Below are positions 3,554 through 52,933 of a DNA stretch of 64,000 nt, in pieces. The translations under genes and the position numbers were made by a program. The notes below the pieces were generated by a model. That model made no database searches. It had not been told where the DNA came from and saw nothing but the letters and a program-made list of their open reading frames with translations. The DNA is from Cupriavidus pauculus (GTDB taxonomy: Bacteria; Pseudomonadota; Gammaproteobacteria; Burkholderiales; Burkholderiaceae): NCBI RefSeq assembly GCF_002858765.1, contig NZ_PJRP01000001.1:1-64000 (forward strand). Reading direction: 5' to 3'. How positions within the stretch are numbered: the first letter of the stretch is position 1; each line of letters opens with the position of its first letter.

Positions 3554-4864
3554 ATGTCCGTTACTGCAGCCTCCGCCAACGACCTGTCCAAAGCCACCCG
3601 ACGACGCGCGATCATCGCCGCTACCATCGGCAACGGCCTGGAATGGTTCGATTTCACCGTCTACAGCTTCTTCGCGGTCATCATCGCCAAGCTGTTCTTC
3701 CCCACCGGCAACGACCTGACGTCGTTCCTGCTGACCGTGGCCACCTTCGGCGTGGGCTTCTTCATGCGCCCGGTGGGCGCCATCGTGCTGGGCGTCTACG
3801 CCGACCGCGTGGGCCGCAAGGCTGCGCTGACGCTGACCATCCTGATGATGGCACTGGGTACGGCCATCATCGGCCTGGCCCCCACCTATGCATCCATTGG
3901 CCTGTGGGCACCGGCGCTGATCGTGCTGGCGCGCCTGATCCAGGGCTTTTCGGCCGGTGGTGAAGTGGGCGGCGCCACGGCGTTCCTGATCGAGCATGCG
4001 CCCGACGAGGAGCGCGGCGCCTACGCCAGCTGGCAGCAGGCCAGCCAGGGCATTTCGTTCATGCTGGGTGCCGCCATGGGCGCGCTGGTCACGAATGGCC
4101 TGGACCAGGCCCAGATCGATGCTTGGGGCTGGCGCATTCCGTTCCTGTTCGGCCTGCTGATTGGCCCGGTGGGCATGTACATCCGCTCGCACCTGGAAGA
4201 GCCGCCCGAGTTCGAGCAGCGCCAGGCCGAGCGCCGCGCCAACAACGTAAAGTTCTCGCCGCTGTCGCAGGTGCTGCGCGACCATCCGCGCGAAGTGCTG
4301 GCCGGCCTGGGCGTGACCATCCTGTGGACGGTCTGCACCTATGTGCTGGTGTTCTACATGCCGTCGTACGCCAAGCAGCAGCTGGGCCTGCCGCTGGGCG
4401 CCACGTTCCAATCCACCGCCATCTGCGGCGCCATCATCCTGGTGCTGTGCCCGCTGATGGGCATGCTGTCCGACCGCGTGGGCCGCAAGCGCATGCTGAG
4501 CGTGGTGGCGCTGGCCATCCTGGTGCTGGCCTATCCGCTGTTCCACTGGCTCAACGTGTCGCCGACCACCGCCACGCTGCTGCAAGTGCAGATCGTGCTG
4601 GGCATCCTGCTGGCCGCCTTCACGGGCCCGGCGCCGGCCGTGCTGGCCGAGCAGTTCCCGACCGAAGTGCGATCCACCGGCCTGTCGCTGGCCTACAACT
4701 TCGCCGTGACGATCTTTGGCGGCTTCGCCCCGCTGATCGTGACCTGGCTGATCGAGTCGACCCACAACAAGCTGGCCCCGGCGTACTACGTGATTGCCGC
4801 CGCCGCCATCAGCCTTGTGGCGCTGGTGTTCATGCACGACCGCACGGGCCAGAAGCTGGCCTGA
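3554..4864 (+). CDS. MHS-family proton symporter (ProP/ShiA-like MFS)
   Basis: A 436-residue transporter. The start at ATG 3554 (MSVTAASAND) is preferred over a TTG at 3488 because the family's conserved part begins at about residue 20 with RRRAIIAATIGNGLEWFDF. The metabolite:H+ symporter hallmarks are present: NGLEWFDFTVYSFF, the DRVGRKAALT loop, LIQGFSAGGEVGGATAFLIEHAP and a second DRVGRKRM loop, with about 12 helices. Relatives import proline/betaine, shikimate, citrate or other organic acids; the substrate here is not deducible. A strong hairpin terminator follows at 4886-4912. Confidence 0.9.
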   Translation: MSVTAASANDLSKATRRRAIIAATIGNGLEWFDFTVYSFFAVIIAKLFFPTGNDLTSFLLTVATFGVGFFMRPVGAIVLGVYADRVGRKAALTLTILMMALGTAIIGLAPTYASIGLWAPALIVLARLIQGFSAGGEVGGATAFLIEHAPDEERGAYASWQQASQGISFMLGAAMGALVTNGLDQAQIDAWGWRIPFLFGLLIGPVGMYIRSHLEEPPEFEQRQAERRANNVKFSPLSQVLRDHPREVLAGLGVTILWTVCTYVLVFYMPSYAKQQLGLPLGATFQSTAICGAIILVLCPLMGMLSDRVGRKRMLSVVALAILVLAYPLFHWLNVSPTTATLLQVQIVLGILLAAFTGPAPAVLAEQFPTEVRSTGLSLAYNFAVTIFGGFAPLIVTWLIESTHNKLAPAYYVIAAAAISLVALVFMHDRTGQKLA

Positions 4865-11962: not shown

Positions 11963-12817
11963 TCAGCGCTTCATGTTCGGGCCGTCGTACGTGCCACCGT
12001 TGGCGTTCTTCGCCAGGAACATCGTCAGGGCGGTGATTACGTCGGAGCCGTAGGCCGGTTCGGGGAATCTCTGCTGGCGCAGGCAGTCGTACAGGCGGTG
12101 CTGCATGGTGCGGACTTCGCCCTGCGACACGCGGTAGGCCGGCCACGTGGTGTACGCGGCCTGGGCGCCCTTCTGGGTCATCAGGTTCGGCAGGTCCTGC
12201 AGGCGGATGCGCTGGCCGTCCACGGCGTGGCAGGTGGCGCAGGCAAAGTCATACGCGCCGCCACGGTAGAAGAACATCTTCTGGCCCAGGGCGTAGACGC
12301 GCTTTTCCTCGGGATGCGTCAGCTGGACGTTCATCTTCACGCCGCGCGATTCGCCGGTCAGGAAGGCGGCCAGGCGCTCGATGTCCGAAGGCTTGCCCTG
12401 CGACGCGAACGGGTTCTTCGTGGCCTCTTCCTGCGTCAGGCCCTGCAGCGTCACGCGGCAATACGCCAGGCGCTGCTCCAGGTCCATCACCTTGTTGGCG
12501 TCCTTGAAGTAGCGCGGCAGCTCGGCGTAGGCACCCTTGGTCACGCCTGGGCCCTTGCCCAGATCGCATTGTTCCAGCGATGCATTCTTCGGGCCGGCGG
12601 GCTTCTTCCACAGTTCCTCGCCGGCGGCTTCCCACAGTTCGGCGGGATTGCCTTCGGCCAACATCTGGCGGTACTTGGCGATTTCCTCGGCGGTGTTGTC
12701 CTGCGCCAGCGCAGGGCCGGACAGCGTGGCGGTGACGGCGGCAGCCACGGCGCCCAGCGCCACCAGCGCGGGGGCCACGGTGCGGCGCAGACGGCGAATG
12801 TTGCGCACGGTAACCAT
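11963..12817 (-). CDS. soxA: L-cysteine S-thiosulfotransferase subunit SoxA (monohaem form)
   Basis: A 284-residue exported cytochrome, started at ATG 12815-12817 behind GGAGAATCCCCC. The signal peptide ends GPALAQ. Only one CxxCH haem site is present (CATCH, C-terminal half); the N-terminal domain keeps isolated cysteines (LEQCDLG, AYCRVTL) but no CxxCH. This matches the monohaem SoxA class rather than the dihaem class. The catalytic cysteine ligand lies in LYDCLRQQRFPEP. With SoxX it forms the enzyme that makes the first bond between thiosulfate and SoxY. Confidence 0.94.
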   Translation of the reverse strand: MVTVRNIRRLRRTVAPALVALGAVAAAVTATLSGPALAQDNTAEEIAKYRQMLAEGNPAELWEAAGEELWKKPAGPKNASLEQCDLGKGPGVTKGAYAELPRYFKDANKVMDLEQRLAYCRVTLQGLTQEEATKNPFASQGKPSDIERLAAFLTGESRGVKMNVQLTHPEEKRVYALGQKMFFYRGGAYDFACATCHAVDGQRIRLQDLPNLMTQKGAQAAYTTWPAYRVSQGEVRTMQHRLYDCLRQQRFPEPAYGSDVITALTMFLAKNANGGTYDGPNMKR

Positions 12818-12955
12818 TGGGGGATTCTCCTCGCCATCGCGCCGCATGGCTGGCGGACGGACGGCCTTCTTGTGCGGGTCCGGCGGCTCGTTGCCGGACG
12901 GCTTGTCAGTGAACCTGGGCGATTCGCCGCGATCTGCGCCGCGCCGCCCGGTCCA

Positions 12956-13423
12956 TCACGGCTTGATGTAGGCGTAGCCCTCGTCGAACTGCAGGCGCGC
13001 GATTTCCACCACGCCCGCCGGCACCACCTTGGCGTCCATCAGCAGGCTTTGCTCGGAAATCCGCCGCGCGGTCAGCGTGTTGCGGCAGGCGCGGAATTCC
13101 ACGCCCGACGACGTCAGCGCCGCCACCGCGGCCTCGAACGTGTTGCCACGCGCATCCTTGGCGCCTTCCACCAGGAAATCCACGCCATAGCCGAACGCCA
13201 CGACCACGATCTTGGTGTCGGGGGCGCCGTTCAGGTGGTTGCGCAGGTTGGACATGGCCCGCACGGCCTGGTCGATGCCGTCCGACAACTGGTACACCAC
13301 CTTGACGCGGCCCTTGCCCGACGCCGCGGACGTGGGTGCCTGGGCTGGCTGGGCCGCCGCCGCCTTGGCGGACAACCCGATGGCGGCCAGGGCCGCCGTG
13401 GCACGAATGAATGCTCGACGCAT
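12956..13423 (-). CDS. DsrE-like (COG1416 type) periplasmic protein in the sox operon
   Basis: A 155-residue protein with a signal peptide (about residues 1-25, AKAAAAQ) and a DsrE/F-like Rossmann-type domain: KVVYQLSDG, then VVVAFGYGVDFLVEG and VEFRACRNTLTARRIS, with one conserved cysteine in the last motif. DsrE relatives relay sulfur on a cysteine. Here it sits between soxZ (29-bp gap) and soxA, so a role in periplasmic sulfur transfer or oxidation control is inferred. I know no established symbol for it. Confidence 0.85.
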   Translation of the reverse strand: MRRAFIRATAALAAIGLSAKAAAAQPAQAPTSAASGKGRVKVVYQLSDGIDQAVRAMSNLRNHLNGAPDTKIVVVAFGYGVDFLVEGAKDARGNTFEAAVAALTSSGVEFRACRNTLTARRISEQSLLMDAKVVPAGVVEIARLQFDEGYAYIKP

Positions 13424-43987: not shown

Positions 43988-44431
43988 TCAGTGTCGCGGA
44001 TGGTCCGGATGGCACTCGCAGCCGGCGCCTTCGGCGGCCTGCTGCAGGTTCTGGAGGATGCCGCACTCGCTGGCCGGATGCGGATTCGGGTTCTCGCAGG
44101 TATGGCGCAGCGTGCGGAGCTGCCCCTCCAGCGCCTCAAGCGCCACCCGCTGGGCGTGAATCTGCTCGATCTGGCGATCCAGCAATGTATTGATATCATC
44201 ACATGCCAGCGACGGGTTGCGCTGGAAGTCGCGCAGCCGGCGCACATCGGCCAGGCTCATTCCCAGCGATCGGCAGTGGCGCACGAAATTCAGCTGCACC
44301 AGATGGCCATCGCCATAGCGGCGGTAGCCGTTGTCTTCACGCTGGGGGGCGTCGAGCAGCCCTTCGCGTTCGTAATACCGGATGGTTTCCACGTCGCAGC
44401 CGCTGTGGCGCGACAGTTCGCCGATGCGCAT
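43988..44431 (-). CDS. cadR: CadR/PbrR-type MerR regulator (Cd/Pb/Zn responsive)
   Basis: A 147-residue MerR regulator. The winged helix reads MRIGELSRHSGCDVETIRYYEREGLL, the dimerisation helix contains the metal Cys in SLACDDINTLLDRQ, and the C-terminal loop has HTCENPNPHPASECGILQNL, matching the Cys-x6/8-Cys metal loop of CadR and PbrR. The last residues CECHPDHPRH add further Cys and His. No cadA or pbrA gene is adjacent; the only divergent partner region runs antisense to speD. Confidence 0.92.
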   Translation of the reverse strand: MRIGELSRHSGCDVETIRYYEREGLLDAPQREDNGYRRYGDGHLVQLNFVRHCRSLGMSLADVRRLRDFQRNPSLACDDINTLLDRQIEQIHAQRVALEALEGQLRTLRHTCENPNPHPASECGILQNLQQAAEGAGCECHPDHPRH

Positions 44432-44491: not shown

Positions 44492-44878
44492 TCAGGTCGG
44501 GCGTGCAGTACCCGGGCCGCGCGCATGGTTTCGCACGTGCCAGTCGGTGGGGGCCAGCGCGCGTACCAGGACATCGACGCCCAGTTCCGGCCGCGCCGTG
44601 CCGCACATGAAGATGTCCACCGCGGCGAAGCCGTACTCGGGCCAGGTGTGGATGCTGATATGCGACTCCCTGAGCAGCAGCACACCCGTGACCCCCAACC
44701 CGGGGCCGAAGTGATGGAGCCGGGCGTCCAGCGGCGTGGCGCCGGCCGCGTGCGCGGCGTCGCGCAGCGCGCGCTCGATCCGCGTGGCGTCAGTCAGCAA
44801 CGTGGCGGCCACGCCCTGCATGTCGAGCAGCAGGTGGTGGCCCAGCACGGGCGGACAGATCGGCGTTGGGGCGTTCAT
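44492..44878 (-). CDS. speD: S-adenosylmethionine decarboxylase proenzyme (class 1B)
   Basis: A 128-residue proenzyme that self-cleaves to form a pyruvoyl group and makes decarboxylated AdoMet, the aminopropyl donor. The cleavage and active-site motif is LLRESHISIHTWPEYGFAAVD (cleavage at Glu-Ser); the catalytic Cys is in FMCGTARPE. Start ATG 44876-44878. It lies 14 bp after the small Ser/Gly-tailed gene and is the last gene of the leftward DUF350-SPFH-DUF4178 unit. Confidence 0.93.
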   Translation of the reverse strand: MNAPTPICPPVLGHHLLLDMQGVAATLLTDATRIERALRDAAHAAGATPLDARLHHFGPGLGVTGVLLLRESHISIHTWPEYGFAAVDIFMCGTARPELGVDVLVRALAPTDWHVRNHARGPGTARPT

Positions 44879-44892
44879 GGCTGGCGCCTCGC

Positions 44893-45057
44893 CTACTTGT
44901 GGCCGCCGCCCGACGACCAGCCGCTGCCGCTGGAACCGCTCCAGCCGCGCGACGACGACGAATAGCCGCCGCGGTCCATGGCGCCCGACGACGCGAGCGT
45001 GTAGAACGTCGCGCCGAACAGCACGATCGAGCCATAAACAAGAAACAGAAAACGCAC
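44893..45057 (-). CDS. 54-residue membrane peptide with Ser/Gly-rich tail
   Basis: A short gene started at GTG 45055-45057 with AAAGGA upstream, and stop TAG at 44893-44895. The peptide has one N-terminal hydrophobic helix (FLFLVYGSIVLFGATFYTLA) and then a low-complexity tail (DRGGYSSSSRGWSGSSGSGW, ending GGGHK). It fits tightly between the DUF4178 gene (12-bp gap) and speD (14-bp gap), which supports it as a real gene. I know no family name. Confidence 0.7.
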   Translation of the reverse strand: MRFLFLVYGSIVLFGATFYTLASSGAMDRGGYSSSSRGWSGSSGSGWSSGGGHK

Positions 45058-45069
45058 CGCCAGTCCTTT

Positions 45070-46596
45070 CTAGTCGTCGTCTGTGCCGGGGTTCGACATG
45101 CTTCCCACCAGCCACAACGGTAGCCACAGCAACAGTGTCCCAACGATCAGGCCGGCGAAATTCGCGCGCCCGAACAGGACGATCGGCAGGTTCAGCAGCC
45201 ACATGATGGCCACGATCCACCAGGCCACCCTTCTGCAGTATCCCAGGTCGCTGCCTGCCGCCACGGGCCGCTTCTTCTCGCGCAGCCGGCTCGCGGCCGC
45301 CAGCGCCTTGTTGTTCCGGAACCACTGCGCCACCTGCGTGCGGCTGACGGTAGTCGACTGGGTCCAGACAATTTCCGTACTCGATGCCTCGCGGGTCAGC
45401 CGCCGCGCCGGTGGTCCGTACTCGGTCAGGTTCGTGACATCGCCGGCCTGCACGCGCCAGTTGAACGTGCCGGCGGCATACAGCACCGTGCTTCTGTACG
45501 CGAAGCCCTTGCGGTACTCCTTGTCGTCGAGCACGGCGACGCTGGCGCCCCCCATCAGGCTGGGCCAGGTATCCAGCACGCGCACGCGATCCCAGCCGGC
45601 ATCCTGCTCCACCAGCCAGATGAACCCGGCCTGCTCGTTGAACAGCAGATACTCGACCCAAGTCGAGGATTCATCGGGATCGTCATCGATGCACTGAAGC
45701 AGCCCAAGCACCGTGTATGGCTTGCCGTCGATCGTGCCGACCTCGCCAGGCGTCAGGCTGGTCTGCAAGGCTTCGATCTCGGCGTGCTTCTCCAGCACGA
45801 TCGCCGTCGACGTCGTGCAATCCACCTCGCTATGGCAACTCGGGCAAACGACGAAATTCGCTACCCCCGGGCGCCAGCCGATCGGGCTGCCGCAGTGGGG
45901 ACAGGCCAGCTGTTCGGCCTTGCCCCGAAAGCGGTCGGCGGTGCGGTCGATGGCGTCGGATTCGCGGAGGAATTGTGCCTGCAGTTGTGCCAGCGTAACC
46001 ATGCCGCCGCGATAGACGGCGGGCGGATAGCCATCGGCGTAATCGAGTGTCAGGAAGTCAGCGGCATTGCGGAAGTCGGCCACATTCGCCGTCCACCCCG
46101 CACCCACCTGGAAAGGCAGCTCGCCCTGCCCACCCGTGCAACGGGCTGTCCGGACGTCGCTGGCCTCGTAGCGATATTTGCCGAAGAAAAGCGGTTCGCC
46201 GGGCCTGAGCGATGCAAATTGCGGCAGCTTGCCCGGCAACGCCTTCGCGGCATCCTCCGTCGCCACACGCCGCGTCAGCATGTACTGGCCCGATGCATCG
46301 GCCAGCCAGCCGTCGCTGCCGTCGTCGAACAGCAGATACCACTCGTTCCACAGCCCGGCGTCGTAGCGCAGCTGGATGCGGCCCACGAGCGTGAAGCCCT
46401 GTCCCTGCCACACGCCGCTGGTATTCATCTGCAGCGGCGTGTAGTCCTCCAGCACGGCCGACATCTTGCCTATGTCGCGCACCTGGTCGGCCTCGCGCAG
46501 CAAGGTGCTGTGGCAGTACTCGCAAACCGCCATGACGGCGGCGGACGAACGAAAGCTGACCTCCGCGCCGCAGCCCGGACAGTTGACCGTTTGCAT
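45070..46596 (-). CDS. DUF4178 double zinc-ribbon membrane protein
   Basis: A 508-residue protein. It starts with a zinc ribbon (CPGC at 6-9, CEYC at 25-28), then a DUF4178 beta-rich domain (about 50-200: LEDYTPLQMNTSGVWQGQGFTLVGRIQLRYD), a second ribbon (CPHC at 232-235, CPSC at 251-254), a second DUF4178-like domain (about 270-410: LGLLQCIDDDPDESSTWVEYLLF), and two C-terminal membrane helices. Biochemical function is unknown. It sits in the SpeD/SpeE cluster, with SPFH 6 bp upstream. Confidence 0.88.
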   Translation of the reverse strand: MQTVNCPGCGAEVSFRSSAAVMAVCEYCHSTLLREADQVRDIGKMSAVLEDYTPLQMNTSGVWQGQGFTLVGRIQLRYDAGLWNEWYLLFDDGSDGWLADASGQYMLTRRVATEDAAKALPGKLPQFASLRPGEPLFFGKYRYEASDVRTARCTGGQGELPFQVGAGWTANVADFRNAADFLTLDYADGYPPAVYRGGMVTLAQLQAQFLRESDAIDRTADRFRGKAEQLACPHCGSPIGWRPGVANFVVCPSCHSEVDCTTSTAIVLEKHAEIEALQTSLTPGEVGTIDGKPYTVLGLLQCIDDDPDESSTWVEYLLFNEQAGFIWLVEQDAGWDRVRVLDTWPSLMGGASVAVLDDKEYRKGFAYRSTVLYAAGTFNWRVQAGDVTNLTEYGPPARRLTREASSTEIVWTQSTTVSRTQVAQWFRNNKALAAASRLREKKRPVAAGSDLGYCRRVAWWIVAIMWLLNLPIVLFGRANFAGLIVGTLLLWLPLWLVGSMSNPGTDDD

Positions 46597-46602
46597 CGGG
46601 AA

Positions 46603-47655
46603 TCAGCCGACCAGCTTCTTCAGGATCTCCGCCTTGGCCGAGTCGAATTCCACCTGCGAGATCAGACCCTTGTCGAGCAGTTCCTTGAGCTTGCCCAGCC
46701 GCGCGGCGGGATCATCGGCCGGGGCGGCTACCGCACCCGCGGCCGCAGCTGCTGGCGCGATCCCCGGTGCGCCCGCGGCGCCCGGCATCCCGGCCACGCC
46801 GCCCACCAGCCCGCCGGCCATGGCCTGCCCCATCACCGCGCCGGCCGCCAGGCCCGCGCCCAGACCCGCCACGCCACCTTCGTTCTGCGCCGCGAGCGGG
46901 ATCGAGCTGGCTACCTGGTACTGGGTGTATTTGGCCATATCGCCCATCATGCCCATCGAGATTCGCGTGTCAATGGCCTTCTGCAGTTCCTCGGGCAGCG
47001 ACACGTTGGTCACCGCGAAGTTGTCCAGTGCCACGCCGTAGCGCGCGAACTCCGGCACCAGCTTTTCGCGGATGGCCTGCGCCATCAGCGTCTGGTTGGC
47101 CGCCATGTCCAGGAACGGGATCGACGACGCGCCCAGCGTGCTGGTCATGGTGGCGATCAGCAGGTTGCGCAACTGCTCTTCCACCTCGTCGCGCGTGTAT
47201 TCGGCGCGCGTGCCGCTGATTTCCGTATAGAACAGCTTCGGGTCGGCAATCTTGTACGAGTACAGGCCGAATGCGCGCAGCCGCACCATGCCGAAGTCCG
47301 CGTCGCGGATCGTGATCGGCTGGGCCGTGCCCCACTTGCGGCCGATCTGCAGGCGCGTGCTGAAGAAGTAGACGTCCGACTTGAACGGCGACTCGAACAG
47401 CTTGTCCCAGTTCTTCAGGTACGTGAGCACCGGCAGCGTCTGGGTGGTCAGCTTGTACATGCCGGGCCCGAACACGTCGGCGATCTTGCCTTCGTTGACG
47501 AAGACCGCCATCTGCGATTCGCGCACGGTCAGGCTGCCGCCGTACTGGATCTCCATGTCCTCCATCGGGTAGCGCCAGGCCAGCACGCCGTCCGTATCCT
47601 CCGTCCATTGGAGGATATCGATGAACTGCTTCTTGATGAATGACCCGATACTCAT
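46603..47655 (-). CDS. SPFH-domain protein with C-terminal SHOCT domain (YdjI-like)
   Basis: A 350-residue protein. The SPFH/band-7-like domain spans about residues 20-250 (VLAWRYPMEDMEIQYGGSLTVRESQMAVF, then GLYSYKIADPKLFYTEISG and ATMTSTLGASSIPFLDMAANQ). A Gly/Ala-rich linker follows, and the last 35 residues form a SHOCT module (LGKLKELLDKGLISQVEFDSAKAEILKKL). Such proteins form membrane-associated scaffolds; Bacillus YdjI is a relative. In this cluster it takes the place that PspA has in similar neighbourhoods. Confidence 0.88.
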   Translation of the reverse strand: MSIGSFIKKQFIDILQWTEDTDGVLAWRYPMEDMEIQYGGSLTVRESQMAVFVNEGKIADVFGPGMYKLTTQTLPVLTYLKNWDKLFESPFKSDVYFFSTRLQIGRKWGTAQPITIRDADFGMVRLRAFGLYSYKIADPKLFYTEISGTRAEYTRDEVEEQLRNLLIATMTSTLGASSIPFLDMAANQTLMAQAIREKLVPEFARYGVALDNFAVTNVSLPEELQKAIDTRISMGMMGDMAKYTQYQVASSIPLAAQNEGGVAGLGAGLAAGAVMGQAMAGGLVGGVAGMPGAAGAPGIAPAAAAAGAVAAPADDPAARLGKLKELLDKGLISQVEFDSAKAEILKKLVG

Positions 47656-47701
47656 TTCAGCACCTCTCGAAGGGGGAATGGTTTGCCGCGCGCGCCAGGC
47701 G

Positions 47702-48088
47702 TCAGGACAGGCAAGCCGCGTTGAGCACGCCGACCGCGACCGACATCGTGCCCATCAGGCCGCCCATGGCGATGTTGTTCGATTCGATGGCCGCGTCCAT
47801 GTCCGGCAGCGCGCGCGCCAGCGCGGCGTAGACCACGGCCTGCACCACCATCGCCCCCAGCGACCACACCAGAAACATCAGGAAGGTGTCGTTGTGCTGG
47901 ATGCTCGATGACAGCGTGAAGCAGAAACCCAGCGTGCTGCCGCCCAGCGACAACGCCGCCGCCACGTTGCCCTGGCGGATCAGCGTGAACTCGTGGAACG
48001 GTGTGATCCTGGTGTAGACTCCGACGAACACGACCAGCAGCACAAGGCTTGCCAGCAGGTGCTCGACGTAGGCATAGATTGGTAGCAT
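47702..48088 (-). CDS. DUF350 inner-membrane protein (YjfL type)
   Basis: A 128-residue protein from ATG 48086-48088 with four membrane helices: HLLASLVLLVVFVGVYTRI, AALSLGGSTLGFCFTLSSSI, FLMFLVWSLGAMVVQAVVYAAL and NNIAMGGLMGTMSVAVGVLNA, the DUF350 pattern. YjfL of E. coli belongs to the yjfIJKLMC operon. It is the first gene of the leftward SPFH-DUF4178-SpeD unit and divergent from the SpeE-like gene. Function unknown. Confidence 0.88.
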   Translation of the reverse strand: MLPIYAYVEHLLASLVLLVVFVGVYTRITPFHEFTLIRQGNVAAALSLGGSTLGFCFTLSSSIQHNDTFLMFLVWSLGAMVVQAVVYAALARALPDMDAAIESNNIAMGGLMGTMSVAVGVLNAACLS

Positions 48089-48189
48089 GTTTCGGGTCGT
48101 TTCTGACGTGTGTTTGGGGTGGTCCCGCCCTGCCGATGCGATGCCGCATGATGATTGCGGCAGAGTATATCCGCAGTCGCATTTTTCCC

Positions 48190-48201
48190 AATACCAGTAT
48201 T
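48190..48201. promoter_or_regulatory. Palindrome AATAC-CA-GTATT in the divergent promoter
   Basis: A perfect 5+2+5 bp inverted repeat in the 172-bp space between the DUF350 and SpeE-like genes. It could be an operator that co-regulates both arms of the polyamine-linked cluster. Confidence 0.4.
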
Positions 48202-48260
48202 CATGACCTTGCCGGACGCTGTTGCGTACCGGCCCATCTCCCGCTGCACGCCGCCGCCCC

Positions 48261-49772
48261 ATGCGCGACCGTACCCTTGTCCTGTCGGTGTTGATCGTAG
48301 CCTCCTGCGGGCTTGGCTACGAACTGATTGCCGGCGCCCTGTCCAGCTATCTGCTGGGCGATTCGATCCTCCAGTTCTCTTCCATCATAGGCTGCTACCT
48401 GTTCGCCATGGGCGTCGGCTCGTGGCTGTCTCGGTATGTGAAGGACGAAGACGTACTGTCGCGTTTTATCGACATCGAGATCCTCGTCGGCCTGCTGGGC
48501 GGCATCTCGGCCGCGCTGCTGTTCGTGGTGTTCGCCTGGCTGTCCGCGCCCTTCCGGACCGCGCTCTATGCACTGATCTTCGTGATAGGGCTGCTTGTGG
48601 GCATGGAGATCCCGCTGGTGATGCGCATCCTCAATGCGCGAAAGGCCCAGTTCAGCGACCTGGTCAGCCGCGTGCTGACGTTCGACTACCTGGGCGCGCT
48701 GGCCGTCTCGCTGGTGTTCCCGCTGGTGCTGGCGCCACGCCTGGGCCTGTCGCGCACGGGCTTCCTGTTCGGCATGCTCAATGTGGCCGTGGCCCTGTTC
48801 ACGCTGCGCATCTTCCGTGACGAGATCCAGGGCTCCACGTTGCGCACGCTGCGCGCCGGCATCGTATTCGCGCTACTGACCGCCGGCTTTGCGGGCTCCA
48901 CGCACCTGACGCGCTGGGCCGAGCGGGGCATGTTCGGCGACGAGATCATCCACAGCGAGACCACGCCCTACCAGCGGCTGGTGATCACGCGCTGGAAGGA
49001 CGACCTGCGCCTGTACATCAACGGCAACCTGCAGTTCTCGTCGCGCGACGAGCATCGCTATCACGAGGCGCTGGTCCACCCGGTGCTACAGGCGTTGCCG
49101 TGGGCGCGCCGCGTGCTGGTGATTGGCGGCGGCGACGGGCTGGCGCTGCGCGAGATCCTCAAGTACCCCGGCATCGAGCACGTGACGCTGGTCGACCTGG
49201 ACCCCGCCATGACCACGCTGTTCTCGCGCAGCGAACCGTTGCGCGCGCTGAACCACGGCTCGCTGACCGACCGGCGCGTGACGGTGGTCAACGCCGACGC
49301 CGCGCAGTGGCTGGAGCAGAGCCAGGACAGTTTCGACGCGATCATCGTCGACCTGCCCGATCCGTCGAACTTTGGCCTCGGCAAGCTGTATTCGGTGCCG
49401 ATGTACCGCCTGCTGTCGCGTCACCTGGCCGAGAAGGGCTACGCGGTCGTGCAATCGACGTCGCCCTACTACGCGCCGCGCTCGTTCTGGGACATCGCCG
49501 CCACGCTGCGCGAAGCCGGCCTGCACACGTGGCCGTACCACACCTACGTGCCGTCGTTCGGCGAATGGGGCTTTATCCTGGCCGCCAAGCGTGCCGACTA
49601 CACGCCCCCTTTGCGCTATGACGTGCCACTGAAATTCCTGGACGCCGACAGCACGAAGCTGATGTTCAGCTTTCCGGCCGACATGGCGCCGCGCGACGGC
49701 CAGGCGAACCGGCTCAACGAACAGACGCTGGTACATGACTTCGAGCAGGACTGGCGCAACGTGATCCGCTAA
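48261..49772 (+). CDS. speE: Membrane-anchored spermidine synthase-like aminopropyltransferase
   Basis: A 503-residue protein. The N-terminal half has about seven membrane helices; from about residue 215 a spermidine-synthase domain follows: ETTPYQRLVITRWKDDLRLYINGNLQFSSRDEHRYHEALVHP, then VLVIGGGDGLALREIL (AdoMet fold), VTLVDLDPAM, and FDAIIVDLPDPSNFGLGKLYS (catalytic Asp). All substrate and decarboxylated-AdoMet residues I can recognise are present, so aminopropyl transfer is likely. The acceptor is unknown. Start ATG 48261 rather than the ATG 39 bp upstream. Confidence 0.9.
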   Translation: MRDRTLVLSVLIVASCGLGYELIAGALSSYLLGDSILQFSSIIGCYLFAMGVGSWLSRYVKDEDVLSRFIDIEILVGLLGGISAALLFVVFAWLSAPFRTALYALIFVIGLLVGMEIPLVMRILNARKAQFSDLVSRVLTFDYLGALAVSLVFPLVLAPRLGLSRTGFLFGMLNVAVALFTLRIFRDEIQGSTLRTLRAGIVFALLTAGFAGSTHLTRWAERGMFGDEIIHSETTPYQRLVITRWKDDLRLYINGNLQFSSRDEHRYHEALVHPVLQALPWARRVLVIGGGDGLALREILKYPGIEHVTLVDLDPAMTTLFSRSEPLRALNHGSLTDRRVTVVNADAAQWLEQSQDSFDAIIVDLPDPSNFGLGKLYSVPMYRLLSRHLAEKGYAVVQSTSPYYAPRSFWDIAATLREAGLHTWPYHTYVPSFGEWGFILAAKRADYTPPLRYDVPLKFLDADSTKLMFSFPADMAPRDGQANRLNEQTLVHDFEQDWRNVIR

Positions 49773-49784
49773 CCGCCAACGGCC

Positions 49785-51455
49785 ATGGATCGACGTCGCT
49801 TCCTGATTGCCGCGGCCGGCACCGCGCTGGCCGGCTGCGAGCGCATCGGCAACGATACCGCGCACTTTCTGGCCGGGCTGGGCCTGCACGAGCCAACGCC
49901 GGTGGTGCTGCGCCCCGGCATGGCCGAAGGGCATGCGCTGCGCGACATGCATCGCTGGGCGGCACCGGTCAGCAAGCAGCGCGTGGACGTGGCGATTCTG
50001 GGCAGCGGCGTTGGCGGCCTGTCGGCGGCTTGGCAGCTGTCGCGCGCCGGCCTGCGCAACTTCGTCATGCTCGACGGCCCCGAGTTCGGCGGCAATGCGT
50101 CTGGCGGCCGCTTCGGAGACATCGGCTTTCCGCGCGGCGCGCACTACCTGCCGCTGCCGTCGGCCGAATCCACCCATGTGCGCGAGATGCTGGCCGACGT
50201 GGGCGTGATCGAGCGCGATCCGTTCGATGCCCGGCCCCGTTTTGACGAACGCGCGCTGGTGCATGCACCGGAAGAACGTCTGTTCTTCGACGGCGCATGG
50301 CAGGACGGCCTGCTGCCCGACAGCGACGCCCACCACGCCGAGCACGCGCGCTTTCTCGCCCAAGTGGACAAATTGCGATCCGCCGTGGGCAACGACGGCC
50401 GCAAGGTGTTCGCCATCCCGCTGGCCCAGTCATCGCGCGACCCCGCCTGGCTGGCCTTGGACGGCCAGACGTTCCGGCAATGGCTGACCGCGCAGGGCTA
50501 CACGGCGCCGACGCTGCACTGGTACGCCGACTACTGCTGTCGCGACGACTATGGCGCGGGCGCCGACGTGGTATCCGCCTGGGCCGGCCTGCACTATTTC
50601 GCCAGTCGGGGCGGACATGCCAGCAATGCGGCCGATGGCGCCGTGCTGACCTGGCCCGATGGGCTGCATGGGCTGGTGACGCGGTTGATGGGCCGTATCG
50701 ATGCCCGCATGGGCGCCGGGCGCCCGTGGCGGCGCGGCGGGATGGCGGTGAAGATCGAGCCTGGCAAGGATGGTGTCAGCGTGCTGTGCGCCGAATGGCC
50801 CGATGGCTTTGGCCAGCCGCCCAGGCTGTCGCGCATCGTGGCGCGCCGCGTGATCTGCGCCATGCCCCTGCACGTGGCGGCGCACCTGATGCCGCTGCAG
50901 CCGCTGGGATTCGATCCCGCTGTTCACCAACAGCACCACGCGCCATGGCTGGTCTCCACGTTCCGACTGCGTGGTTTTCCACAAGAACAGGCCGGCGTGC
51001 CGCTGGCGTGGGACAACGTCGTCCATGGTGCGCGCGGACTTGGCTATGTGGTGGCCACGCACCAGTGGATTCGCCAGGCGCGCCCCGCGCAAACCGCGTT
51101 CACCGCGTACACACCGCTCGACGCCCAAGCTGGCCTGCCCGCCGGCAGCCGCCCCGACGCCGTGCGAAGCTGGCTGGTGGATGCGTCGCCGGCCGCATTG
51201 ATGGAACTGGCCGTCGCCGACCTGCAGGCGGTCTACGGGCGCGAGTTCTGGCGCCACGCCGACGCCGTGGAGATCACCGCGCGCGGCCATGCGATGGCCA
51301 CGCCAACGCCCGGCTTCCTGTCCAATGCCGGCCTGGCCGCCCTGCGCGCGGCGGACGGCCCGGTGCTGTTCGCGCACGCCGACCTATCCGGCCTGTCGGT
51401 GTTCGAGGAAGCGGCATGGTGGGGCACACGCGCCGCATTGAGAATCGTCGGATAG
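49785..51455 (+). CDS. Exported FAD-dependent oxidoreductase lipoprotein (amine-oxidase-like)
   Basis: A 556-residue flavoprotein. The N-terminus combines a twin-arginine motif (DRRRFLI) with a lipobox LAGC (Cys 18), so the folded enzyme is probably exported by Tat and lipidated. The FAD site is VDVAILGSGVGGLSAAWQLSRAG. Later motifs include FGGNASGGRFGDIGFPRGAHYLP and the C-terminal VLFAHADLSGLSVFEEA that closes the flavin site of amine oxidases and desaturases. It lies 12 bp after the SpeE-like gene, suggesting oxidation of a polyamine product. Confidence 0.85.
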   Translation: MDRRRFLIAAAGTALAGCERIGNDTAHFLAGLGLHEPTPVVLRPGMAEGHALRDMHRWAAPVSKQRVDVAILGSGVGGLSAAWQLSRAGLRNFVMLDGPEFGGNASGGRFGDIGFPRGAHYLPLPSAESTHVREMLADVGVIERDPFDARPRFDERALVHAPEERLFFDGAWQDGLLPDSDAHHAEHARFLAQVDKLRSAVGNDGRKVFAIPLAQSSRDPAWLALDGQTFRQWLTAQGYTAPTLHWYADYCCRDDYGAGADVVSAWAGLHYFASRGGHASNAADGAVLTWPDGLHGLVTRLMGRIDARMGAGRPWRRGGMAVKIEPGKDGVSVLCAEWPDGFGQPPRLSRIVARRVICAMPLHVAAHLMPLQPLGFDPAVHQQHHAPWLVSTFRLRGFPQEQAGVPLAWDNVVHGARGLGYVVATHQWIRQARPAQTAFTAYTPLDAQAGLPAGSRPDAVRSWLVDASPAALMELAVADLQAVYGREFWRHADAVEITARGHAMATPTPGFLSNAGLAALRAADGPVLFAHADLSGLSVFEEAAWWGTRAALRIVG

Positions 51456-51940: not shown

Positions 51941-52054
51941 TCCCGATTCGCGCGGCCGACATGTGCCGCGCCTACCCTTGTCGCCTGGCACGCCGGATGG
52001 GTGCCGAGCGCGCCTGCGGCCTGTCCGCGTCCTTACCTGTACTGCCCCACAACC

Positions 52055-52933
52055 ATGAAACGCATTTTCCTGTTCCTGGCGACCAACATCGCCGTCATGC
52101 TCGTACTCAGTATCACGGCCAGCCTGCTGGGCGTGAACCGCTTCCTGACGTCCAACGGGCTGAACCTCGGCATGCTGCTGGCCTTTGCCGCACTGATGGG
52201 CTTTGGCGGTTCGTTCATCTCGCTGTTGATGTCCAAGACCATCGCCAAGTGGTCCACCGGTGCCCAGGTCATCACCCACCCGAGCACCAGCACGGAGCTC
52301 TGGCTGATGCAGACCGTCGAGAAGCTGGCCACGCGCGCCGACCTGCCGATGCCCGAAGTAGCCATCTACGACGGCGAGCCCAACGCCTTTGCCACGGGCG
52401 CGTCGAAGAAGAGCTCGCTGGTGGCCGTGTCCACGGGTCTGCTGCAGTCGATGTCGCATGAGGAGGTGGAGGCCGTGCTGGCGCACGAAGTGGCCCACAT
52501 CGCCAATGGCGACATGGTCACGCTGACGCTTATCCAGGGCGTGGTGAACACGTTCGTGATCTTCATGGCACGCGTCGTCGGCTACTTTGTCGACTCGTGG
52601 CTGCGCCGCAATGACGAGGAATCGAACGGCCCCGGCATCGGCTACATGATCACGGTGGTGGTCTGCGAGATCGTGTTCGGCATCTTGGCCAGCATCATCG
52701 TGGCGGCCTTCTCGCGCCATCGCGAATACCGGGCCGATGCCGGCGCGGCCGGCCTGATGGGCACGCCCGTGCCGATGGTGGGTGCGCTGCGCCGCCTGGG
52801 CGGCCTGGACGCCGACGGCCTGCCGCAAAACATGCAGGCCATGGGCATCTCGGGCGGCAAGTCGTGGATGGCGCTATTCTCGAGCCACCCGCCGATCGAA
52901 TCGCGTATCGCCGCGCTGCAGAACGCCCGCTGA
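52055..52933 (+). CDS. htpX: HtpX zinc metalloprotease
   Basis: A 292-residue inner-membrane M48 protease that degrades misfolded membrane proteins with FtsH. Start ATG 52055. Two N-terminal helices precede the zinc site [13 protein letters not shown] (His144, Glu145, His148), two further helices, and the third ligand region [13 protein letters not shown]. The end [13 protein letters not shown] is typical. Length equals E. coli HtpX (293). Confidence 0.96.

Follow-up and report, generated by a model that had tools for sequence, protein, structure and literature searches.

A fusion of spermidine synthase to an MFS domain (MFS-SpdSyn), accompanied by an active S-adenosylmethionine (AdoMet) decarboxylase and DUF350, is said to have been described by Li et al. 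in 2019; spermidine was reportedly absent from such bacteria, the fusion reportedly failed to complement an E. coli speE mutant, and an acceptor other than putrescine is said to have been proposed and left unidentified. The question of a 'polyamine-independent role' of AdoMet decarboxylase beside the membrane SpeE fusion was reportedly raised at that time, the acceptor being lacking. Here we analyse an operon system containing such a fusion in a stretch of 64,000 nucleotides of Cupriavidus pauculus (contig NZ_PJRP01000001.1 of RefSeq assembly GCF_002858765.1, positions 1 to 64,000; hereafter the window), which comes from a genome of 7.4 Mb in 38 contigs. We propose, with a probability of roughly 0.55, that the operon serves lysine-tail aminopropylation: the membrane-bound aminopropyltransferase SpeE would aminopropylate the C-terminal lysine of a neighbouring tail protein.

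SpeE fused to seven transmembrane (TM) helices, in operons with DUF350 and DUF4178, is described in the main text of Ravi et al. 2024 (PMC11237479), which cites Li et al. 2019 (Biochem J 476:2579) and which also describes a variant where a band-7 protein with two TM segments and SHOCT replaces CesT/Tir-PspA, accompanied by an AdoMet decarboxylase and a polyamine oxidase. The roles proposed in that text are polyamine sensing, or aminopropylation of other substrates. The locus in the window resembles this variant in its Band-7 protein with SHOCT, its AdoMet decarboxylase, predicted polyamine oxidase and DUF350, and in having no PspA-CesT/Tir; however, the text of Ravi et al. assigns that variant to its ATP-grasp group, and the present locus carries the SpeE fusion and no ATP-grasp enzyme. 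An earlier reading of the letters of the window (the original prediction) had held that SPFH replaces PspA here, which is correct and, according to the same main text, already in print. The gene content and linkage of the operon are thus already known; new here is the Lys-tipped tail as acceptor. The word 'lysine' is absent from the main text of Ravi et al., which mentions no Lys-ended tail, and neither a Lys-tipped tail as acceptor nor an aminopropylated C-terminal lysine was found in the open-licence PubMed Central literature.

Lysine-ended tail proteins beside membrane SpeE

The candidate acceptor is a Gly/Ser/Trp-rich, membrane-anchored tail peptide of 54 residues (44893..45057, minus strand) with the end SGGGHK, the proposed acceptor residue being its C-terminal Lys. 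The original prediction had listed the gene, which is indeed present, without interpretation, and its product matched no Pfam or NCBIfam family. Relatives in genome contigs numbered at least 560, and the best 80 that were kept are close betaproteobacterial relatives, a non-random sample; eight of these loci stop at a contig edge before the peptide (L014, L017, L037, L042, L054, L061, L062 and L073). His-Lys forms the C-terminal end of the peptide in 72 of the 72 betaproteobacterial loci that reach it, and 68 of the 72 peptides are distinct over their last 45 residues. The His codon is CAC in 65 and CAT in 7, and the Lys codon AAG in 45 and AAA in 27. An origin of the terminal Lys in a stop-start overlap (ATGA/GTGA) with speD was ruled out by this codon usage and by the stop codons: TAA or TAG ends 18 of the 72 genes, and therefore no overlap with speD forces the lysine. 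When the C-termini of the remaining operon proteins of these loci were compared, no fixed Lys end was seen. The last residue of membrane SpeE itself (window 49764-49772, plus strand) is Arg in all 80 loci.

A more distant set of 26 loci consisted of 20 of the 21 other loci over the SpeE cut-off (G164 was dropped, its SpeE lying at a contig edge) and six plasmid records picked out of 46 that gave a match, and represents one phylum plus one Gemmatimonadota (a plasmid record). A first look at the 20 distant loci gave a Lys-ended Gly/Ser tail in 18. The scan rule, a hydrophobic start and a tail of at least 40% G/S/N/T, was blind to the last residue, with thresholds chosen after this first look; in 21 of the 26 loci it detected a Lys-ended tail open reading frame (ORF) encoded on the same strand as SpeE, with any other last residue in at most 2 of 26 and an opposite-strand Lys end in 2 of 26. 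The five misses were inspected with the answer in mind, not blind: L141 has a Lys peptide on the divergent strand, like the window, L142 and L140 have one between DUF4178 and DUF350, and in L127 and L130 SpeE stands alone at the locus, but each genome encodes a Lys-tailed protein next to DUF350 on a different contig.

The result was replicated with a prediction written beforehand, using the same rule on either strand of 23 loci from 22 new genomes (22 of the loci are new, L177 being the same contig as L010). A Lys-ended tail was present in 21 of 23 loci and every other last residue in at most 3 of 23. As for the two misses, L196 has a peptide with a THK end at the usual place, and the genome of L178 encodes DUF4178 fused to a GGGHK-ended tail about 10 kb from SpeE. 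The tail carriers are not one family but small TM peptides, lipoproteins and tails fused to the end of DUF4178. Among the 20 distant loci, a Lys tail occurs in 18, DUF350 in 17, SpeD in 10, DUF4178 in five and SPFH in two, and the oxidase in L117-L119. With membrane SpeE and DUF350, the Lys-tipped tail thus stays while SPFH, DUF4178 and the oxidase come and go; the partner set put forward in the original prediction stands for DUF350 and holds less well for the other three, which are not universal partners of membrane SpeE.

The membrane SpeE matches of L182 and L191 (G358, and G350 contig 15) each include one counted stop, which may lie at the end of the match; both loci still have Lys-ended tail proteins. 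Tails ending in RSSSGFIG, not Lys, were seen in L209 (6223-7209, minus strand) and L210 (stop at 4662, plus strand), from genomes G081 and G141, which have a long DUF350 and gave no over-cut-off membrane SpeE and no PF03738 match. Their neighbours include two proteins without a Pfam match and, in L209, also a fumarate-reductase-like flavoprotein; possibly these tails belong to a third tail-modifying system.

Forty tail proteins were sorted by signal type, their start positions being uncertain. A lipoprotein signal was assigned by rule in 15 of the 40, and a lipobox-like motif that the rule overlooked is present in L186 and L207; among the 25 non-lipoprotein tail proteins, K/R exceeds D/E ahead of the TM stretch in 18 (starts uncertain). 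Where DUF4178 is fused to the tail, one or three TM stretches were counted by eye, against two in stand-alone DUF4178, and an odd number, if DUF4178 is inside, would therefore put the fused tail outside in each case. On these sequence features the tail is predicted to lie outside the cytoplasm.

Aminopropyltransferase, decarboxylase and exported oxidase

In the mechanism that we propose, SpeD would make decarboxylated AdoMet in the cytoplasm, and membrane SpeE would move the aminopropyl group onto the tail, at the side-chain amine of its C-terminal lysine, the lysine side chain being comparable to a protein-held putrescine arm. The product would be N-epsilon-(3-aminopropyl)lysine, a spermidine-like cap tethered at the membrane surface. 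The oxidase, where present, may act on the capped tail by trimming or converting it, a membrane platform would be provided by DUF350, SPFH and DUF4178, and the purpose would probably be membrane-surface stabilisation or stress sensing. We infer the transfer itself, its membrane side, the oxidase substrate and the purpose from conservation, that is, from the observed gene content, the lysine rule and the differing tail ends beside two enzyme types described below. If the proposal is right, the modification would be akin in logic to deoxyhypusine and to the polyamine-lysines of silaffins.

Membrane SpeE (48261..49772, plus strand), with seven TM helices followed by the aminopropyltransferase domain, matches NF002956/PRK03612 over residues 3-501 of 503 (693.2 bits; cut-off 472), and its nearest named homologues are from Cupriavidus, with 96% identity (uncultured Cupriavidus) and 93% identity (C. 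metallidurans); a C. necator relative has 88% identity. Residues D292, D312, D346, D364, D367, Q258, Y267 and E269, which we take to form the active site, are invariant among 65 aligned sequences, in keeping with the intact AdoMet/Asp site of the original prediction. Invariant residues were also seen in the C-terminal extension (F469, F471, D474, N483, Q488 and W498). The AlphaFold2 (AF2) model shows seven long helices and then the SpeE fold (mean predicted local distance difference test score, pLDDT, 88.8), and the best Foldseek matches were the Thermus aminopropyltransferases 1uir and 3anx (triamine/agmatine).

The invariant active-site residues and these nearest structures, together with an oxidase fold resembling spermidine dehydrogenase and putrescine oxidase, would also suit a membrane SpeE whose product, made at the membrane, is a small polyamine in free form (spermidine or a less usual amine); the exported oxidase would then break it down, and the Lys peptide would be a structural or regulatory subunit. 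We regard this as unlikely: it leaves unexplained the terminal Lys of unrelated tails, the tails beside ATP-grasp enzymes being without Lys; the score against TIGR00417 (speE, the housekeeping spermidine synthase) is far under its cut-off, at 129.9 of 249.55 bits; and the bacteria of the 2019 report are said to lack spermidine and their fusion to leave an E. coli speE mutant uncomplemented. A simple spermidine operon was set aside on the same equivalog score. As regards the claim of the original prediction that a polyamine is made, possibly for an envelope target, an attached product is plausible, but a free polyamine is not supported and is probably wrong, since the constant Lys tail points to a protein acceptor.

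The genome contains four PF01564 matches including the SpeE of the window. One is a soluble SpeE-like protein of 337 aa (C12; 101.3 bits, below the curated SpeE cut-offs) with DLTE in place of DxxD by eye, another is a 987-aa frame (C11) at 31.9 bits, above the family cut-off, and the last (C21) is below the family cut-off; free spermidine synthesis may thus reside elsewhere in the genome. A class 1b SpeD adjoining an unusual aminopropyltransferase, the arrangement seen here, is also described for P. aeruginosa PA4773-PA4774 (SpeD2-SpeE2) in passages of PMC11107197, according to which PA4774 has 349 aa and makes thermospermine. PA4774 differs in length from the membrane fusion of 503 aa, and a PA4774-like thermospermine synthase was set aside as a candidate on the description given there.

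Seven peaks were present in the hydropathy profile of SpeE. The mean K+R count per sequence was 10.5 in loops 0, 2, 4 and 6 and 3.9 in loops 1, 3 and 5 plus the first 20 residues past TM7, a bias that points to an N-terminus inside and a catalytic domain probably outside the cytoplasm. Since the tail and the oxidase are predicted to be extracytoplasmic, as the SpeE domain probably is too, decarboxylated AdoMet would need a way across the membrane, which the 7-TM part of SpeE or DUF350 might offer.

SpeD, a class 1b AdoMet decarboxylase (44492..44878, minus strand; PF02675, 119.9 bits; TIGR03330, 128.9 bits, cut-off 75.65), is the sole PF02675 match in the genome. Its ESH..H..C motif aligns with the T. 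maritima AdoMet decarboxylase 1tlu, and the Ser, His and Cys, presumably serving self-cleavage and catalysis, are kept, bearing out an intact pyruvoyl-cleavage motif as originally predicted. Neofunctionalised SpeD homologues are described in parts of PMC10407285; a neofunctionalised ornithine/arginine decarboxylase was set aside here in view of the aminopropyltransferase neighbour and the strong AdoMet decarboxylase match, and SpeD is predicted to decarboxylate AdoMet, not ornithine or arginine. A class 1 AdoMet decarboxylase was found in 25 of the 29 genomes with membrane SpeE that were searched, and a class 2 (eukaryote-type) enzyme in one more, G162. SpeD and a soluble SpeE domain are apparently joined in one frame in G082:C1:3827719-3828891 and G196:C50:2711-3928 (448/451 aa), separate from the membrane SpeE operon of those genomes.

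The persistence of the decarboxylase bears on whether the lysine is modified at all. The tail might serve as a docking or occupancy signal, its unmodified lysine sitting in the SpeE pocket as sensor or plug of an SPFH/DUF350 complex: it is membrane-tethered, Lys-terminated and placed beside a polyamine-binding enzyme, lysine resembles amine substrates, and in one genome (G037) membrane SpeE occurs together with a Lys tail, no AdoMet decarboxylase being detected. Such a signal needs no SpeD, yet 26 of those 29 genomes keep a class 1 or class 2 enzyme, and it needs no catalysis, yet the catalytic residues of SpeE are invariant; we therefore rate it as quite unlikely.

Downstream of SpeE lies the exported flavin adenine dinucleotide (FAD) enzyme of amine-oxidase fold (49785..51455, plus strand; PF01593, 31.9 bits, cut-off 19.8), with a twin-arginine translocation (Tat) signal and lipobox. 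Export, another element of the original prediction, agrees with the twin-Arg motif that all 54 of the homologues examined carry; 34 of the 54 have a lipobox. In a Foldseek search with its AF2 model, the first match was protoporphyrinogen oxidase, followed by spermidine dehydrogenase SpdH, putrescine oxidase and monoamine oxidase, and the model has a flavin amine-oxidase fold; a polyamine is the putative substrate. An exported enzyme of this fold might take the lysine amine of the tail as its own substrate, in lysyl-oxidase-like aldehyde cross-linking, while SpeE acts elsewhere, for example on a lipid head group. We consider this highly improbable, as Lys tails persist without an oxidase match in L120-L126, L128, L129 and L131-L135 (some of these contigs are short), and the single oxidase match of L136 overlaps the SpeE frame; FAD labels were counted only when the frame ends downstream of SpeE. 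Conservation of the Lys is therefore unlikely to depend on the oxidase, and the aminopropylation of the tail by SpeE remains our preferred explanation.

Operon layout, spread and weighing of the proposal

The remaining genes of the leftward unit encode a DUF4178 protein (45070..46596, minus strand; 92.4 bits, two DUF4178 stretches and, by eye, two C-terminal TM helices), an SPFH/band-7 protein with a SHOCT end (46603..47655, minus strand; Band_7_1 PF13421 264.9 bits, SHOCT PF09851 32.3 bits, and PF01145) and a YjfL-like DUF350 membrane protein (47702..48088, minus strand; PF03994 113.3 bits), which is the sole DUF350 match in the genome. Zinc ribbons had been claimed among the other proteins of the system; the DUF4178 family match holds, and the zinc-ribbon matches in the DUF4178 protein are below cut-off. 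When two C-terminal TM segments were looked for in the SPFH protein, an Ala/Gly-rich stretch before SHOCT was seen in the sequence. Neighbouring genes are separated by gaps of 14, 12, 6, 46 and 12 bp, and the two units by 172 bp of divergent intergenic region (48089..48260), a putative shared promoter region. ORFs and family matches agree with the seven genes and coordinates originally given, and the coordinates likewise confirm both the gaps of 6-46 bp and the divergent region.

The order DUF350 > SPFH > DUF4178 > peptide, divergent from SpeE, was identical in all 72 betaproteobacterial loci reaching the peptide, and the oxidase lay downstream of SpeE in 80 of 80; the arrangement is therefore not due to chance, and the genes form one system, as had been predicted. 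SpeD came next after the peptide in 69 of the 72. More widely, membrane SpeE was above cut-off in 22 of 200 genomes of the phylum of the window, and DUF350 was present in 21 of these 22 (the exception, G169, is 71% complete), so that co-occurrence is conserved beyond close relatives. Plasmid records searched with DUF350 and DUF4178 added no further phyla. CopL and MerR labels in the loci of relatives were treated as low-complexity or homologue noise and left unused. An HtpX membrane protease (52001-52933, plus strand) and a CadR/PbrR-like MerR regulator (43988-44431, minus strand; score under the equivalog cut-off) flank the system; HtpX was matched in 8 of 100 loci and looks like a local neighbour.

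Several observations weigh against aminopropylation of the tail, or against its generality. No class 1 or 2 AdoMet decarboxylase was found in G037 and G057, whose stated completeness is high, or in G169 (71%), and in L072, L083 and L084 speD is not at the locus but elsewhere in the genome. The oxidase, absent from most distant loci, is accessory, and the system is patchy and dispensable, membrane SpeE being present in one of two same-genus genomes and in none of the eight same-family genomes listed. The Lys rule covers one phylum and one Gemmatimonadota, and no actinobacterial DUF4247 operons. The terminal Lys could be a plain charge or a docking signal, the modified peptide is a prediction drawn from conservation, and we know of no transporter of decarboxylated AdoMet, though catalysis outside needs its export.

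Two enzyme types and two kinds of tail end

In E. coli, YjfC and YgiC carry the RefSeq name 'peptide--spermidine ligase' (see also Pederick 2023, Biochemistry 62:899), and the neighbouring tail proteins end differently from those described above, YjfM in HWGG and YgiB in SMGG. We scanned 30 loci of the 42 PF03738 (ATP-grasp) matches listed, with a slightly looser rule, and detected a partner tail upstream in 24 of the 30, with Gly as the last residue in 17, Ser in six, Glu in one and Lys in none (compared with the first set, Fisher p is 1e-9, and with the replication set 2e-11, both uncorrected for phylogeny). Of the same 200 genomes, 22 had membrane SpeE and 37 had PF03738, with an overlap of 0 (p 0.008, uncorrected for phylogeny); five of the 37 had only long GspS-like frames of about 630-660 aa, and p was 0.017 without them. 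With Gly, Ser or Glu ends beside ATP-grasp, Lys beside SpeE and no overlap between the two, enzyme type and tail end change together. No PF03738 match was found in the genome of the window, in line with the original prediction that no ATP-grasp ligase is present.

The relation to the yjf neighbourhood that had also been predicted was borne out by the shared DUF350 and by the SpeE operon of L121, which has both PspA and DUF2170 in common with the yjf chassis. Beside PspA in L121, the protein encoded at 12581-13231 (minus strand) matched DUF4178 weakly (23.5 bits against a cut-off of 25), which suggests a distant DUF4178 relative.

If the tail is indeed aminopropylated, bacteria would have two independent ways of capping a membrane tail with a spermidine-like group, polyamine chemistry would be linked to membrane-surface proteins, and the presence of two unrelated enzymes on a common DUF350/PspA operon chassis would be explained. 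The constant terminal Lys on a neighbouring membrane tail offers a concrete, directly testable acceptor. We suggest more tentatively, and with some doubt, that extracytoplasmic C-terminal-lysine aminopropylation on membrane-tethered Gly/Ser tails is an unrecognised protein modification, providing a spermidine mimic where free spermidine may be lacking and a second route that differs chemically from that of the ATP-grasp ligases while converging with it in function.

The system reportedly described in 2019 has the same fusion enzyme, decarboxylase and DUF350 as the locus in the window, the specific acceptor being proposed only here. The likeness to yjfIJKLMC and ygiBC consists of DUF350 (in yjf), the PspA and DUF2170 relatives and a Ser/Gly-tailed membrane protein, and both routes would end in a spermidine-like group that is tethered. 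The yjf/ygi route, however, uses an ATP-grasp ligase, presumably joining a C-terminal carboxylate to ready-made spermidine, whereas the present locus lacks an ATP-grasp enzyme and pairs an aminopropyltransferase with a tail whose C-terminal residue is lysine (HK end) rather than Gly or Ser.

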